The translations under genes and the position numbers were made by a program. Shown here one piece after another: positions 737 through 6,273 of a stretch of 43,105 bases of DNA. This DNA is from Bacteroidaceae bacterium (GTDB lineage Bacteria > Bacteroidota > Bacteroidia > Bacteroidales > Bacteroidaceae): the NCBI GenBank assembly GCA_017617575.1, contig JAFZVY010000083.1:1-43105 (forward strand), written 5' to 3'. Every line of letters starts with the position of its first letter. Position 1 is the first letter of the stretch. The notes under the pieces are model-generated. The model was not told where the DNA came from and did not search any database. It was given only the letters and a program-made list of their open reading frames with translations.

Positions 737-3700
737 TTGAAACGGCTTGTTTACATAGTGTCAATGGTGTCAGTAATGATGCTTGCACTTTCGTGCAGTC
801 ATAATGCTGACAAGCACACGAGGGACGTAGTGGATTCACTTAATGTCCTGTCGTGCAAGATGCTCTATGTCTCTGCACATGAGTCGGAGGATATTGCCAA
901 GAAGGCACTTGCCAAGAGTGATGGCTATCATGACGGAAAGATGGAGGCTCTTTGCAATATTGCTCATGCCAAGATGATGCAGATGGACTTTGACTCTGCA
1001 AGGATTATCCTTAATGACGTGAAGTCCTCAACCAATAATGCGCTCTACCTTATGATTGCCGATGTGCGACTTATGAAGCTATGCCAGTTTGTAGCTGCAA
1101 ACAAGGAGTTCTATGAGTACCGCACTGATGCCGACATTCGTATGGAGAGGGTAAAGGAAGACGAGGATGTGATGAATGATCACCAAAGGCTTATATGGAA
1201 GATTGCCAACTGCTGGTATCATCTTAGCCTTACTTCCCATTACAACAACCTCCGATATGATGAAGAAACAGAACAGTCAAAGGAACAGTATCTGAAATGG
1301 TTTCGGGAATTGGGTAATGATAGCGTCATCATATCTGAGATGTTCCGTAAGCACGACCTAAACCATTGGAAGAAATATGGCAATCTCTATTACGAGTCGA
1401 TGGAGCTTGTGAATATTGCCGACACCCTTTCGCTTAACGGAAATAACTATGAGGCACTTGATACTCTTAACAGGGCCCTCCAATGCATAAATGATTATTA
1501 TGGTTTTAAGGACGAGGAGAAACTCCATGTGTTCGACATGATGGATATGAATGAGGTGTCTAAGGAGATGGTTTTGATAAACGACCCGAATGTTAATACC
1601 ATCCCTAACTGGTTTGCCGCTGTCCGTGAGGAACTGAGTATCGTCTATGGAGCACTCGGAATGAAGGATGCCTCTGACTATAACCATAACATCTATTTCG
1701 ATATTCTTGATGCCACACGTCAGGATTTGAGTCTTCAGGAACGACAGGAAAGGCTTGAGCATGAGAACAGGATGCTCAACGTGCTGTTTGGTTCTGTTGT
1801 CGTGATATGTGTGGTTATTATCTGGCTCATGATATTTGTGAGCAAGAGGATTTCCGTACGTAGTATTGAGAAGTCGGAGAAGTTGTCTAAGCTCATAGAG
1901 CTATGTACAGCCATGACGTCTGCCATGCCTTCGGAGGCAACAGACGAGGAGGATGTGGCTAATGCCATTCATGAGGCGGCTGATGATTCCGTTAAGGCTC
2001 TTCTCCCTATGATAAAGGGCGACTGGACAAAGTACAACGTGAAGAAGCTTGACGGCTTCGATAGCGAGATGCTTACCGTCCTTCAGGTTCTCTACAACTG
2101 GATTATTGACAATGGACGCATAGTGGTGGAGATGACCGAGGAGAGCGAGCGTGTGGATAGTGAGCGATACGTTCACGAGAGAAGGATAGAAGATAACAAG
2201 CGACAGTATATAGACAAGGAGACGAGCGTAAGTATCGTAAATGGTATCACTCCGTTCCTCGATAGGGCTATGCGAGAGGTGGAGAAGCTCAAGACCGTGG
2301 ATATAGATGCCAACAGGGACGAGGTGAACGAAAGGCTCGTCTATATCAAGGAGCTTGTGGAGAAGATAGATGCCTTCAACGATGTCCTTGGCCATTGGGT
2401 AAAGATTCGTCAGGGTGCTGTCACGCTTAACATCGAGAATTTTGCGCTTCAGCCATTATTCGACACCCTTGCCAAGGGACGTACTATGTTTGAGGCAAAG
2501 AACATAACGCTTGACATGCCAGAGTCGTCGGATGCCGTGGTTAAGGCAGACCATGCCCTTACGCTCTTTATGATGAACACACTCATGGACAACGCCCGTA
2601 AATATACTCCAGAGGGTGGAGTAGTGAAGGTGAGTGCCGAGGTGGCAGACAACTATGTGGAGATAAGTGTTAAGGACTCTGGAAACGGATTGTCGCCAGA
2701 AGATGTGGATACGCTCAATAACAATAAGGTTTATGACTCCAGCAAGATAGGAGTAAATGAGGATGCGAGTGGCGAGATTCGCAAAAACAAGGGCTTCGGC
2801 TTTGGTCTTATGAATTGCCGAGGCATCATAGAGAAATATCGCAAGACAAACGCCATATTCGACGTATGTGCCTTTGGCGTTGAGAGTAACTTGGGCGAGG
2901 GTAGTCGTTTCTATTTCCGTCTTCCAAAGGGAGTGGTAAGGACGGCACTTACACTTGCTTTCATGATTGTTTCCGGCTATGCTAATGCCAAGGGTGGTGG
3001 AGTTGCCAATAATGATACTGTGATGGATGATGAGCTGAAGCTTGCAGAACAGTATTACGACAGTCTTTACAACTGTAACATGAATCGTGATTATGAGCGT
3101 GCTGTGGCTTTTGCCGATACGGCAATCATGCACCTTAATAGTTACCACCTTCAGCAAGGTGCCGATTCATCTATGCTGATGTATCTCGATGGCGATACGA
3201 TGAACGAACTCAAGTTGGAGAAGCAAGGCTTTGAAACCAACTATACAGTCATAATAGACATCCGAAATGAGGTGGCAATATCAGCCTTATCGCTTAACAG
3301 AAGACATCTGTACCAATACAACAAGGAGATATTCACTCGCTTGTATAAGCAGTTGTCGGATGACCGCACGCTTGAGGATTATTGTAACTCCATGCAGCAG
3401 TCGTCCGTGAACAAGCAGGTGACCATGACCCTCATCATGTTCTTTGTGTTCATACTTCTGTTTGTATATTCGCTTCTGTATTATCGCCACAATATGTTGT
3501 ACATTTTTAATGTGCGACAGTTGCTCAGGTTTACTCGCAAGCTCTTCTCTGCCAAGGAGGAAGAACAGAAATACACGCTTCTCCGTGGCGTGAACGAAAT
3601 AAGGAGCGTTGATGCTATAGGAGTGGCTTACGTAGATGTCAATTCCGTGGATGGACAGCTCATTTATAGCTTTGAGGGAAATACAGAGTGTCGTGTCATG

Positions 3701-4681
3701 CTTGAACAGTTCATGCACCTTTGCTACGAACGACAAGAACACTTGAGTAATGAGCGTGAGCGATTCCTTGCCTTTCCTCTTATCGTGAATACGGAGGGTG
3801 AGAAGAAATGTATCGGAGCCATTGGTATGATGCTTCATGATGCTCATATCTCAAAGAATGATGAACTCACTCTTCAGCTTATAGCAAACTTCTATGCCAT
3901 TCATTCGTACTTCTGTAGTACACGTGTGGACGAACAGAAGGCTGAGCTTGAGCTTAGGCTTGACGAGATGCGTCGTACAAAGCATGAGGACAACCAGATG
4001 CACATTCACAACATGGTGCTTGACAATTACCTCTCAACCATCAAGCATGAGACGATGTACTATCCTGGTCGAATAAAGCAGATAGCGGAATCGGCTCTTA
4101 AAGAACCTGACGAAGCACGTCTCAAAGACCTTGCCGAGATTACCACATACTATAAGGAGGTGTTCTCACTCCTTTGCAGTGGTGCTTCACGCCAGTTGCA
4201 GAGGCGAGTGTTCAAGCGAGAGAAGATAAACGTGAGCGACCTTGTACGTTATGCTAAACGTACGTTTGACAAGCGTAACAAGAAACTTTACCTGCCAATT
4301 ACTCTTGAGGTGGAGGAACTGGAGCAAGGTTTGACGCTCATGACAGATAGGATTATTGCAAATTACATGATAGACTCCCTTCTTTCAGGTGCTTTTGAGG
4401 ATGAATCAAGTGGTGTTTTGAAGTTAAGTTTTGCCAAGTCAGAAAAATTCATTATGTTTGCATTCACAGATTCACGCCTTGAGTATTCAAAGGAAGAACT
4501 GGCAAATCTTTTCTATGCGGACAATGTCAAGTATGATGGCATAACAGGAGTGCTTCATGGTTCACAATATCTGTTGCTTAAACAGATGGTACGTGAGCAT
4601 GATGAATATTCTGGAAACAAGGGTTGTCGCATATATGCTGAACAGGCAGACGAGGGCACCCGTATAGTCATGATGCTGTAG
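737..4681 (+). CDS. Double-module hybrid sensor kinase with complementary defects
   Basis: This is a very large membrane sensor of about 1,314 residues (1,329 from the ATG at 692). I prefer the TTG at 737, which follows AGAAGAAA and gives a lipoprotein-like signal ending in LALSC. Numbering here is from 692. Residues 40-360 are a helical, TPR-like exported region and 362-385 a membrane helix. Residues 500-745 form a kinase core: the phospho-acceptor position is Asn517 (VNGITP), but the ATPase has its N-box (Asn634), DSGNG (662-666) and GFGFG (701-705). Residues 748-766 look like a second signal peptide or membrane helix. A second exported segment, a helix at 911-931, a GAF-like region and a second kinase-like part follow. 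That part has a good H-box (His1119, KHETMYYP) but no recognisable glycine-rich ATPase boxes. I recall Bacteroidales families named DUF5112/DUF5113 of this size, not verified. The response regulator follows after about 110 bases. Confidence 0.85.
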   Translation: MKRLVYIVSMVSVMMLALSCSHNADKHTRDVVDSLNVLSCKMLYVSAHESEDIAKKALAKSDGYHDGKMEALCNIAHAKMMQMDFDSARIILNDVKSSTNNALYLMIADVRLMKLCQFVAANKEFYEYRTDADIRMERVKEDEDVMNDHQRLIWKIANCWYHLSLTSHYNNLRYDEETEQSKEQYLKWFRELGNDSVIISEMFRKHDLNHWKKYGNLYYESMELVNIADTLSLNGNNYEALDTLNRALQCINDYYGFKDEEKLHVFDMMDMNEVSKEMVLINDPNVNTIPNWFAAVREELSIVYGALGMKDASDYNHNIYFDILDATRQDLSLQERQERLEHENRMLNVLFGSVVVICVVIIWLMIFVSKRISVRSIEKSEKLSKLIELCTAMTSAMPSEATDEEDVANAIHEAADDSVKALLPMIKGDWTKYNVKKLDGFDSEMLTVLQVLYNWIIDNGRIVVEMTEESERVDSERYVHERRIEDNKRQYIDKETSVSIVNGITPFLDRAMREVEKLKTVDIDANRDEVNERLVYIKELVEKIDAFNDVLGHWVKIRQGAVTLNIENFALQPLFDTLAKGRTMFEAKNITLDMPESSDAVVKADHALTLFMMNTLMDNARKYTPEGGVVKVSAEVADNYVEISVKDSGNGLSPEDVDTLNNNKVYDSSKIGVNEDASGEIRKNKGFGFGLMNCRGIIEKYRKTNAIFDVCAFGVESNLGEGSRFYFRLPKGVVRTALTLAFMIVSGYANAKGGGVANNDTVMDDELKLAEQYYDSLYNCNMNRDYERAVAFADTAIMHLNSYHLQQGADSSMLMYLDGDTMNELKLEKQGFETNYTVIIDIRNEVAISALSLNRRHLYQYNKEIFTRLYKQLSDDRTLEDYCNSMQQSSVNKQVTMTLIMFFVFILLFVYSLLYYRHNMLYIFNVRQLLRFTRKLFSAKEEEQKYTLLRGVNEIRSVDAIGVAYVDVNSVDGQLIYSFEGNTECRVMLEQFMHLCYERQEHLSNERERFLAFPLIVNTEGEKKCIGAIGMMLHDAHISKNDELTLQLIANFYAIHSYFCSTRVDEQKAELELRLDEMRRTKHEDNQMHIHNMVLDNYLSTIKHETMYYPGRIKQIAESALKEPDEARLKDLAEITTYYKEVFSLLCSGASRQLQRRVFKREKINVSDLVRYAKRTFDKRNKKLYLPITLEVEELEQGLTLMTDRIIANYMIDSLLSGAFEDESSGVLKLSFAKSEKFIMFAFTDSRLEYSKEELANLFYADNVKYDGITGVLHGSQYLLLKQMVREHDEYSGNKGCRIYAEQADEGTRIVMML

Positions 4682-4793: not shown

Positions 4794-5513
4794 ATGGAAA
4801 ACTTCAAAGTAATTATAGTTGAAGACGTAAAACTCGAACTAAAGGGTACGGAAGAGATATTCCGCAATGAAATACCTGAGGCACAGATTATAGGAACTGC
4901 CCAGAATGATACGGAGTTGTGGTTGCTCATTAAGGAGAACCAGCCAGACCTCGTGCTTCTTGACCTTGGTCTTGGTGGCTCTACAACTGTGGGCGTGGAT
5001 ATCTGCCGTATTCTTCGTAAGCGTTATCCAGAGGTAAAGGTGCTTATCTTCACAGGTGAGATACTTAACGAGAAACTTTGGGTTAATGTACTTGACGCAG
5101 GAGCTGACGGTATCATCCTCAAGAGTGGAGAACTCCTTACACGTTCAGACGTTATGAGCGTGATGAGTGGTAAGCGTATGGTGTTCAACCAGCCAATACT
5201 TGAGAAGATTCTTAAGCGTTTCCGTAAGTCCGTACTTGATGAGGCTCGTAAGCAGGAGGCAATTATCGACTACGATATTGACGAGTATGATGAGCGTATG
5301 CTTCGCCATCTTGCCCTTGGCTATACCAAGGATATGATTGCAGGATTGAAGGGTATGCCTTTCGGAGTTAAGTCTATCGAGAAGCGTCAGGTCGATCTTA
5401 TCACTCGTCTCTTTGGTGAGGGGCATACAGGTGTTAATGCCACACGTCTTGTCACGCGTGCCTTTGAACTTGGAATACTTAATGTAGATAATCTTGAAGC
5501 TGATGATGAATAG
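4794..5513 (+). CDS. Response regulator with C-terminal LuxR-like region
   Basis: The product has 239 residues. Residues 4-125 are a receiver domain with all key residues: acidic pair Glu10/Asp11, phospho-acceptor Asp57 (LLDLGLGG), Thr87 (FTGE) and Lys110 (LKSG). Residues 165-235 form a helical output region (MLRHLALGYTKDMIAGLKG, then VKSIEKRQVDLITRLF), which resembles a LuxR/NarL-type helix-turn-helix in layout but is divergent. DNA binding is therefore likely but not certain. It follows the double-module kinase, is probably its partner, and overlaps the next gene by a few bases, so all three probably act as one signalling unit. Confidence 0.9.
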   Translation: MENFKVIIVEDVKLELKGTEEIFRNEIPEAQIIGTAQNDTELWLLIKENQPDLVLLDLGLGGSTTVGVDICRILRKRYPEVKVLIFTGEILNEKLWVNVLDAGADGIILKSGELLTRSDVMSVMSGKRMVFNQPILEKILKRFRKSVLDEARKQEAIIDYDIDEYDERMLRHLALGYTKDMIAGLKGMPFGVKSIEKRQVDLITRLFGEGHTGVNATRLVTRAFELGILNVDNLEADDE

Positions 5514-6273
5514 ACGCAGTGTGTTTGTCATTCTTTGGAAGATTCTTTTCCATCAATTACCATTTATACTACTGTTGGCAATACCGGCAGTAGCTATATG
5601 GTCGTGGGTAAGCAGCCTTTATATTGATGAGTCGGTAAGGAGTCTTCTTAACTCGGATGGCATTCGCTGGAGCGTTGCAAACATCATTACCAACCTTAAC
5701 GCCGTTCCTTTTGCCACGGTATTCTCCTTGCTTATATGTGCAGGGGTATTGTGTGAGTCGGGACTTGTTAGTACTATAATAACTCTGTTGGTAGAGCGTA
5801 ACTGGCATAATGGAAGCGTGTCTCTCAAGCAAAGACGAGCACTTACGCTTGTCGCTTTCTTCGTGGAGTTCTGTGCCGTATGTGTTGTTCTTCAGTACAT
5901 CTTCCGCGGCTCTTTGCTGTTGTCTGCATTTGGTACGTATCATGATTCACCGTTATCAAGAGGATGGCTGGGTTTGCTTATTGTCTTTCTTATAATTATC
6001 GGTAATGTTTTTGGCTATGCGTCAGGAAGGCTTGTGAGCGTTGTGGATTTCATTAACGCTCATACTTTCTTTCTTCGCAAGTGTGCAGGATATTTCATCG
6101 TGGCATTCGTGTCAGCTGAACTTATCGCCTGTATAAAATACACAGGACTGTTAGGCGATGATGCCGTAACAGTCCTGTCATATATTCTTTTTTATTTCCC
6201 TTTGTTATCTTACTTTATCTCGTCTATCTTGTCTTCAAGGATATACCAGATGAAGCCTTTCACATCTTTGTAA
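5506..6273 (+). CDS. Six-helix integral membrane protein, AbgT-like
   Basis: The protein has about 255 residues and six hydrophobic helices, near residues 10-30, 55-80, 100-122, 145-168, 185-205 and 212-238. A frame extends to a TTG at 5494, but ATG codons at 5503 and 5506 overlap the response regulator stop and are better starts, giving translational coupling. The segment GVLCESGLVSTI followed by RRALTLV is reminiscent of part of AbgT-type transporters, but at half the usual length, so I do not assign a substrate. It may be a membrane partner or output of the kinase/regulator pair. Its last 21 codons overlap the end of the convergent helicase-nuclease gene by 64 bases. Confidence 0.75.
   Translation: MNRRSVFVILWKILFHQLPFILLLAIPAVAIWSWVSSLYIDESVRSLLNSDGIRWSVANIITNLNAVPFATVFSLLICAGVLCESGLVSTIITLLVERNWHNGSVSLKQRRALTLVAFFVEFCAVCVVLQYIFRGSLLLSAFGTYHDSPLSRGWLGLLIVFLIIIGNVFGYASGRLVSVVDFINAHTFFLRKCAGYFIVAFVSAELIACIKYTGLLGDDAVTVLSYILFYFPLLSYFISSILSSRIYQMKPFTSL

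Follow-up and report, generated by a model that had tools for sequence, protein, structure and literature searches.

The window analysed here, a 43,105-nucleotide stretch on the forward strand of contig JAFZVY010000083.1 from a Bacteroidaceae bacterium (GenBank assembly GCA_017617575.1), contains a gene for a sensor histidine kinase with two kinase modules in a single open reading frame (ORF) and, directly downstream, a gene for a response regulator (Table 1). A previous, sequence-only reading of this DNA had proposed that the kinase is split into halves with complementary defects, the first module keeping its ATP-binding boxes with Asn517 in place of the phospho-acceptor histidine, the second having a clear H-box around His1119 and no glycine boxes, and that ATP bound by the first might phosphorylate the second. 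Every residue that it named exists: Asn517, N634, DSGNG at 662, GFGFG at 701 and KHETMYYP, which includes His1119, at 1118. Residues are numbered here from the ATG at 692; the start at 737 assumed previously is an in-frame TTG, codon 16, from which translation would give a neat lipoprotein signal with Cys35 at its end. In the window protein Pfam detects one DUF5112, one HATPase_c and two stretches of DUF5113, which a genome search also recovers as separate matches; the DUF5112 and DUF5113 family scores are 118.4 and 213.3 bits against cut-offs of 29.4 and 27.1, and at least two DUF5113 stretches are present both in this protein and in 6/6 scanned relatives, in keeping with the proposal of two separate exported sensor segments. 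As a whole, the earlier proposal is partly upheld by our analyses; it overlooked an internal duplication, a degenerate ATPase-derived domain in the second module and a joint between the modules that resembles a signal peptide.

Homologues were collected in two ways. Searching named genome contigs with sequence patterns gave 137 relatives, including Prevotella and Phocaeicola, of which 80 loci were kept; because the search patterns contained the His1119 box, the claim about His1119 does not rest on these loci, and for the same reason a second set was picked by the N-terminal DUF5112 alone. Within the same bacterial family DUF5112 was matched in 233 of 301 sampled genomes, and in 137 of the 168 good ones. 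The DUF5112-chosen set, to which counts out of 100 refer below, comprises 100 regions from 99 genomes and 24 genera, hand-picked for spread and not drawn at random, and holds 100 distinct proteins, some truncated at contig ends; across a half-sample (50 proteins) the pairwise identities were 25–78% (median 35%). The named and DUF5112-chosen sets overlap, and the combined set contains 163 distinct sequences from 180 loci plus the window protein. Each of the 180 loci has a single kinase ORF, 11 of these ORFs reaching a locus end. The DUF5112 search also lists two short frames of 273 amino acids (aa) in genome G452 and 688 aa in G653, where gene fission is possible; G452 and G494 have two DUF5112 matches each, and G472 carries the two-module kinase in two copies on different contigs (loci L260 and L261).

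DUF5113, a transmembrane segment (TM), a dimerization and histidine phosphotransfer domain (DHp) and a catalytic ATP-binding domain (CA) occur in both halves of the protein, which is therefore an internal tandem duplication; DUF5112 is found in the first half only. An hhalign comparison of the two modules gives an alignment of 473 columns at E 8.5e-28, in which N517 faces H1119.

The two copies have retained opposite parts of the kinase. In module 1, residues N629, N634, K637, D662, G664, G666, G703, G705 and G737 are each conserved in 100/100 members, so that the ATP boxes are invariant with the exception of G701, the first glycine of the second glycine box (G90 S6 E1 N1, with 2 gaps), and HATPase_c was matched by all 53 module 1 domains scanned. 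In module 2 it is K1118, H1119, E1120 and P1125 that are each found in 100/100; His1119 is present in 163/163 aligned sequences, and in 80/80 after thinning to below 70% identity. The string N....N[AG] occurs in 162/162 first modules against 3/160 second-module domains, DxGxG in 162/162 against 4/160, and a GxGxG-type string in 162/162 against 9/160. The phospho-acceptor column shows the reverse, with an entropy of 0 bits at 1119 against 3.1 bits at 517, where 15 residue types are found (N27 T21 Y18 A8 H6 G4 M4 D2 E2 L2 R2 Q1 V1 C1 S1). Asn517 and His1119 are thus not the conserved pair that had been expected, since the slot in module 1 drifts while His1119 is invariant, although the two defects themselves, ATP boxes lacking a phospho-acceptor in module 1 and an H-box lacking glycine boxes in module 2, recur throughout the sample. 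A histidine and intact N and G boxes, which together characterise an orthodox class I histidine kinase (HisKA plus HATPase_c), are never conserved within one module; judged by sequence, the ATP-binding and phospho-acceptor functions lie on different modules, as they do in a split kinase. The division of His1119 and the ATP boxes between the modules is, on this comparative evidence, a trait of the family, and neither half looks able to work alone.

The identity of position 517 as the vacated histidine slot depends on how module 1 is aligned. An alignment limited to the kinase parts begins downstream of the H-box. The best match of the module 1 profile in the PDB, 7z8n (E 1.9e-14), places 517 opposite the histidine of SHEIRTP, with middling-to-low per-residue confidence. 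An arginine at +8 is common to both modules (R525 in 160/161; at 1127, R149 and K14 of 163). Ordinary kinases have the conserved proline at +5, whereas it stands at +4 in module 1 and at +6 in module 2; because the module 1 offset differs from that of module 2, the slot may be off by one residue, and 516–518 is the safe range. None of these three positions holds a conserved histidine, histidine is absent from the whole of 508–525 in 144/163 sequences, and H-E or H-D is found within 508–524 in 0/163.

For module 2, a profile hidden Markov model alignment sets His1119 on the histidine of the SHDLRSP and SHDLRTP boxes of two ordinary kinases (L341 and L342). The profile of its C-terminal domain matches a solved sensor protein, PDB 3a0t, which we take to be ThkA, and also ordinary Bacteroidota kinases, the best outside match having E 1.3e-14. 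This domain is, on the profile matches, descended from HATPase, with its ATP boxes lost. It has conserved columns of its own (F1274 100/100, R1301 99/100, G1311 97/100), which suggest that a non-catalytic task such as docking has been retained. Among 159 proteins whose ORF is clear of locus ends, the median number of residues after His1119 is 214 and 24 have fewer than 185; the shortest tails, 127 and 137 residues in L029 and L080, may be broken ORFs. The phosphatase motif HE/DxxN/T that marks the bifunctional subclass of split kinases is not present at His1119, and in the absence of Thr or Asn at +4 any phosphatase activity would be non-canonical.

A DUF5932 response regulator lies directly downstream of the kinase in 169 of 174 evaluable loci, the other 6 of the 180 having too little flank. 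It was not nearby in five, four of them from genus g233 (L187, L191, L192, L255) and the fifth L080; in genome G440 (L192) it was located on another contig, so that here the pair has been kept though not adjacent. In a panel of 33 hand-chosen genomes, the regulator was present in 9/9 with the kinase, in 0/20 genomes of the same family without DUF5112 (drawn from 68 such genomes) and in 0/4 outside the family. The receiver residues are intact, E10, D11 and D57 being conserved in 152/153 and T87 and K110 in 153/153. Taken together, the comparative sequence evidence and this co-conserved regulator strongly support the original suggestion that catalysis would reside in module 1 and the acceptor in module 2, neither sufficing alone. 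The end of the regulator gene is overlapped by a 259-aa ORF (5494–6273, forward strand) with a weak match in two stretches to the AbgT transporter family (PF03806), and with BLAST relatives in 102/180 loci.

Table 1. Positions in the window of the kinase gene, its predicted parts and the regulator gene.
Feature	Position	Strand	Evidence and remarks
Two-module sensor histidine kinase, 1329 aa	692..4681	+	ORF; alternative start TTG 737 gives short lipoprotein signal
N-terminal lipoprotein-type signal ending at Cys35	737..796	+	Cys at column 35 in 151/163; 93/100 in DUF5112-chosen set
DUF5112 (exported), residues 47-196	830..1279	+	Pfam PF17139, E 4.8e-34
DUF5113 copy 1, ending in TM1 (from about residue 361)	1376..1849	+	PF17140, E 1.1e-30
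Module 1 degenerate H-box, residues 512-525	2225..2266	+	Conservation and profile alignments; Asn517 = AAT 2240-2242
Module 1 catalytic ATP-binding domain, HATPase_c residues 627-746 (N634, DSGNG, GFGFG)	2570..2929	+	PF02518, E 1.7e-15; conserved boxes
Internal signal-peptide-like segment, residues 746-766	2927..2989	+	Motif statistics; possible cleavage after Ala766
DUF5113 copy 2, ending in TM3 (from about residue 910)	3026..3487	+	PF17140, E 3.1e-35
Module 2 H-box KHETMYYP	4043..4066	+	H1119 in 163/163; His1119 = CAT 4046-4048
Module 2 putative pseudo-ATPase domain, HATPase-derived (start approximate)	4214..4678	+	Profile match to PDB 3a0t, E 2.2e-7; boxes lost; own conserved columns
Response regulator, receiver + DUF5932, presumed phosphate acceptor	4794..5513	+	Pfam; conserved receiver residues; adjacency

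Between the modules, the hydrophobic stretch that follows the module 1 ATPase must lead the module 2 sensor out of the cell interior. Compared with TM1 and TM3, it has fewer uncharged residues in a row (median 16; 20 and 22 in those two spans) and is less hydrophobic, a hydrophobicity of at least 1.6 being reached in 99/160 joints against 161/161 for TM1 and 155/155 for TM3; a basic start, P[KR]GxxK/R, is found in 94/162. Motifs of signal peptidase cleavage are concentrated there. The string x[AGS]Q, which the Bacteroidetes Q-rule would lead one to expect at a signal peptidase I site (PMC5837995), occurs in 50/162 joints against 3/161 for TM1 and 0/153 for TM3, shuffled joints giving a mean of 18.5 and at most 29. 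A lipobox is found in 27/162 against 2/161 and 5/153 (shuffle mean 9.5, maximum 20), and xA/G[QESDN] in 89/162 against 9/161 and 8/153 (shuffle maximum 69). After thinning at 60% identity the corresponding figures are 27/89, 3/89 and 0/87 for x[AGS]Q and 14/89, 1/89 and 2/87 for the lipobox. N-terminal signal peptides of other proteins from the named loci, a crude comparison set that includes at least one non-secreted sequence, carry the three motifs in 47/157, 26/157 and 99/157. By genus, the lipobox (in a pattern slightly wider than that used for the family-wide counts) is found in 10/11 members of g2 and g3 and x[AGS]Q in 5/5 of g227, most other genera being mixed; the window protein has Ala-Asn-Ala at 764–766. 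From these statistics we read the joint as a signal peptide kept under selection, at which cleavage would separate a kinase half from an acceptor half.

The explanation that we prefer begins with an ancestral sensor kinase, comprising an exported DUF5113 sensor, a TM, a DHp and an ATPase, that was duplicated head to tail within one gene, as the profile alignment shows. Complementary loss followed, module 1 giving up its phospho-acceptor and module 2 its ATP binding, a pattern shown by residue conservation. The module 1 ATPase is then predicted to phosphorylate His1119, either within one chain or between the partners of a dimer or mixed bundle, and the phosphate would pass from His1119 to Asp57 of the adjacent DUF5932 regulator, as co-conservation and the intact receiver residues suggest. 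By analogy with ChpT or Spo0B, the module 2 pseudo-ATPase probably serves for docking; Spo0B likewise combines a kinase-like DHp histidine with a domain that resembles an ATPase without using ATP. Since output would require both modules, two periplasmic sensors could gate one signal, and the cytoplasmic stretch that in many members precedes the module 2 DHp, where alignment columns 955 and 1119 lie 35 to about 190 residues apart, is perhaps an additional gate. To this explanation as a whole, from duplication and complementary loss to transfer from the module 1 ATPase through His1119 to the regulator, we assign a probability of a little over 70%.

Several observations weigh against it and lend some substance to its competitors. 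The H slot of module 1 can be placed only to within about one residue, and 517 is a histidine in 11 of 161 ungapped sequences, from genera g215 and g225 of the DUF5112-chosen set and from named loci, so that this slot might still work in some lineages and the division be only partial. A histidine at 517 had been named in advance as a result that would undo the sequence-only reading; nominally it is found, although never followed by Glu or Asp and never accompanied by loss of His1119, and fellow members of the same genera carry unrelated residues there, which leaves a working module 1 slot a very slender prospect. In module 2, single ATP-box strings persist in the few domains counted above, a loose GxG string in 73/160, and PF02518 (HATPase_c) is matched by 28 of 54 domains at E up to 1 (best 6.8e-9), while one g2 and one g3 member have two HATPase stretches each. 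With most tails near full length, module 2 might on these grounds autophosphorylate through a non-canonical working ATP site, module 1 being a separate kinase or a regulatory ATPase, but the Asn and glycine boxes are unconserved there and the shorter tails leave fewer than 185 residues past the histidine, and we regard this as only marginally more credible than a functional His517. Also unfavourable is that residue 1123, at +4 from His1119, lacks the canonical Thr or Asn (Y92 W5 F2 S1 of 100). A relay of the ChpT or Spo0B type is the better alternative, in which His1119 would be fed by another kinase or by back-transfer from a response regulator, and the module 1 ATPase would act elsewhere or only regulate. 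Module 2 indeed has the anatomy of ChpT, a DHp histidine with a HATPase-derived domain devoid of ATP boxes (PMC3433190), but both half-activities occur in the same chain wherever a sequence covers the two (His1119 in 163/163, N....N[AG] in 162/162), and Pfam found no receiver in the window ORF or in 6 relatives, a result that comes without a systematic search for a third partner; we consider such a relay unlikely.

A further possibility extends, and does not oppose, the explanation by duplication and complementary loss. The joint may be a working signal peptide, at which signal peptidase I, or II where there is a lipobox, would cut the nascent protein, leaving a kinase-only and a substrate-only protein to meet again in the membrane as a split kinase made from a polyprotein. 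The shortness of the joint, its lower hydrophobicity, its often basic start and its cleavage-motif rates, which are like those of N-terminal signal peptides, all favour this. On the other side, plain AxA occurs at the joint in 37/162, not above the shuffle maximum of 41; 30/100 members have no motif under the patterns used, most genera being of mixed type; lipobox strings outnumber those of the shuffles even in the control TM3 (5, where shuffling gave 3 at most); the halves were never seen as separate genes in the 180 loci; the joint follows a large cytosolic domain, an unusual position for a signal; and the patterns and tail windows were picked after the sequences had been viewed. We put the chances of cleavage slightly short of even. 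FbcH of Bradyrhizobium is said to be an earlier case of a bacterial polyprotein cut at an internal signal, for which our literature search gave no confirmation. The fullest form of the idea, that one duplicated gene supplies a kinase-only and an acceptor-only sensor, separated by signal peptidase into a split kinase of fixed 1:1 ratio in which two periplasmic sensors must agree, we hold to be a shade less probable again.

The origin of the duplicated unit was sought outside the family. Among 384 genomes of the order, DUF5113 gave 8 matches outside the family, all with E 8.6e-5 or worse, and a single-module ancestor carrying either DUF5112 or DUF5113 was looked for beyond the family with weak, mostly partial matches only. 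One DUF5113 match, in G120, passed the cut-off through the summing of in-frame neighbours; it lies in a TPR protein in which no kinase part was seen. Inspected by eye, 27 outside loci (24 of them viewed through short pieces of the longest ORF's final 420 residues, plus 3) held TPR-type sensors, regulators, kinases and other proteins, with no KHETMYYP seen in these often incomplete stretches. A profile of residues 388–1329 matched 16 of the 20 same-family genomes without DUF5112 (best E 9.4e-15), mostly in the ATPase part and in a few cases in the C-terminal part. Two of the C-terminal matches, in L308 and L309, lie in long sensor proteins of another kind. These two loci (G437 and G475, genus g227, without DUF5112) each have two neighbouring long sensor ORFs; the first in L309 has HATPase and a receiver, and the second ORFs of both, incomplete at the stretch end, match only Reg_prop. 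The single-module kinases of the phylum are the plausible ancestral type. Those compared here (L341 and L342, and the TPR-TM kinases L105 and L107) share a homologous kinase core, over which the comparison was made, and, unlike the two-module protein, have a single module that carries both the ATPase and the histidine, the latter in a box of SHDLR type.

If the preferred explanation is true, the family offers a natural membrane-bound split kinase with two sensors wired as a logical AND, and it would be a clear example of a duplication whose copies, within a single chain, degenerated in complementary ways; a kinase cut by signal peptidase, if that too is true, would represent a new route to a receptor in two parts. 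The two-module kinase belongs to gut and rumen bacteria, and its DUF5112 marker is widespread in its family. Our literature search, with most subscription papers outside its reach, found no functional description of DUF5112, DUF5113 or DUF5932, and on proteins with two kinase domains it found only other systems.

The closest known logic is that of CheA3/CheA4 of Rhodobacter sphaeroides (PMC3591291), where one partner provides the ATPase and the other the phospho-acceptor histidine, and neither autophosphorylates alone. As in that system, ATPase and acceptor are divided and a dedicated response regulator is present, transfer being proven there and predicted here; unlike it, with its two CheA-type proteins, we find two membrane sensor modules in one duplicated ORF with a signal-peptide-like joint. 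A split kinase is, moreover, two distinct polypeptides in a complex, whereas here a single ORF was found in each of 180 loci, with cleavage-motif statistics at its joint that hint at cutting. For bifunctional split kinases, ultrasensitive or bistable switching has been predicted (PMC3591291); this may not extend to the present kinase, in which the phosphatase motif is not present at His1119. The closest anatomy to that of module 2 is found in ChpT (PMC3433190), where a kinase-like DHp with its histidine is joined to a domain that looks like an ATPase but makes no use of ATP. A hybrid kinase feeds ChpT, whereas in the protein described here Pfam finds no receiver, either in the window ORF or in 6 relatives, and the phosphate for His1119 would come from the first module of the same duplicated gene.

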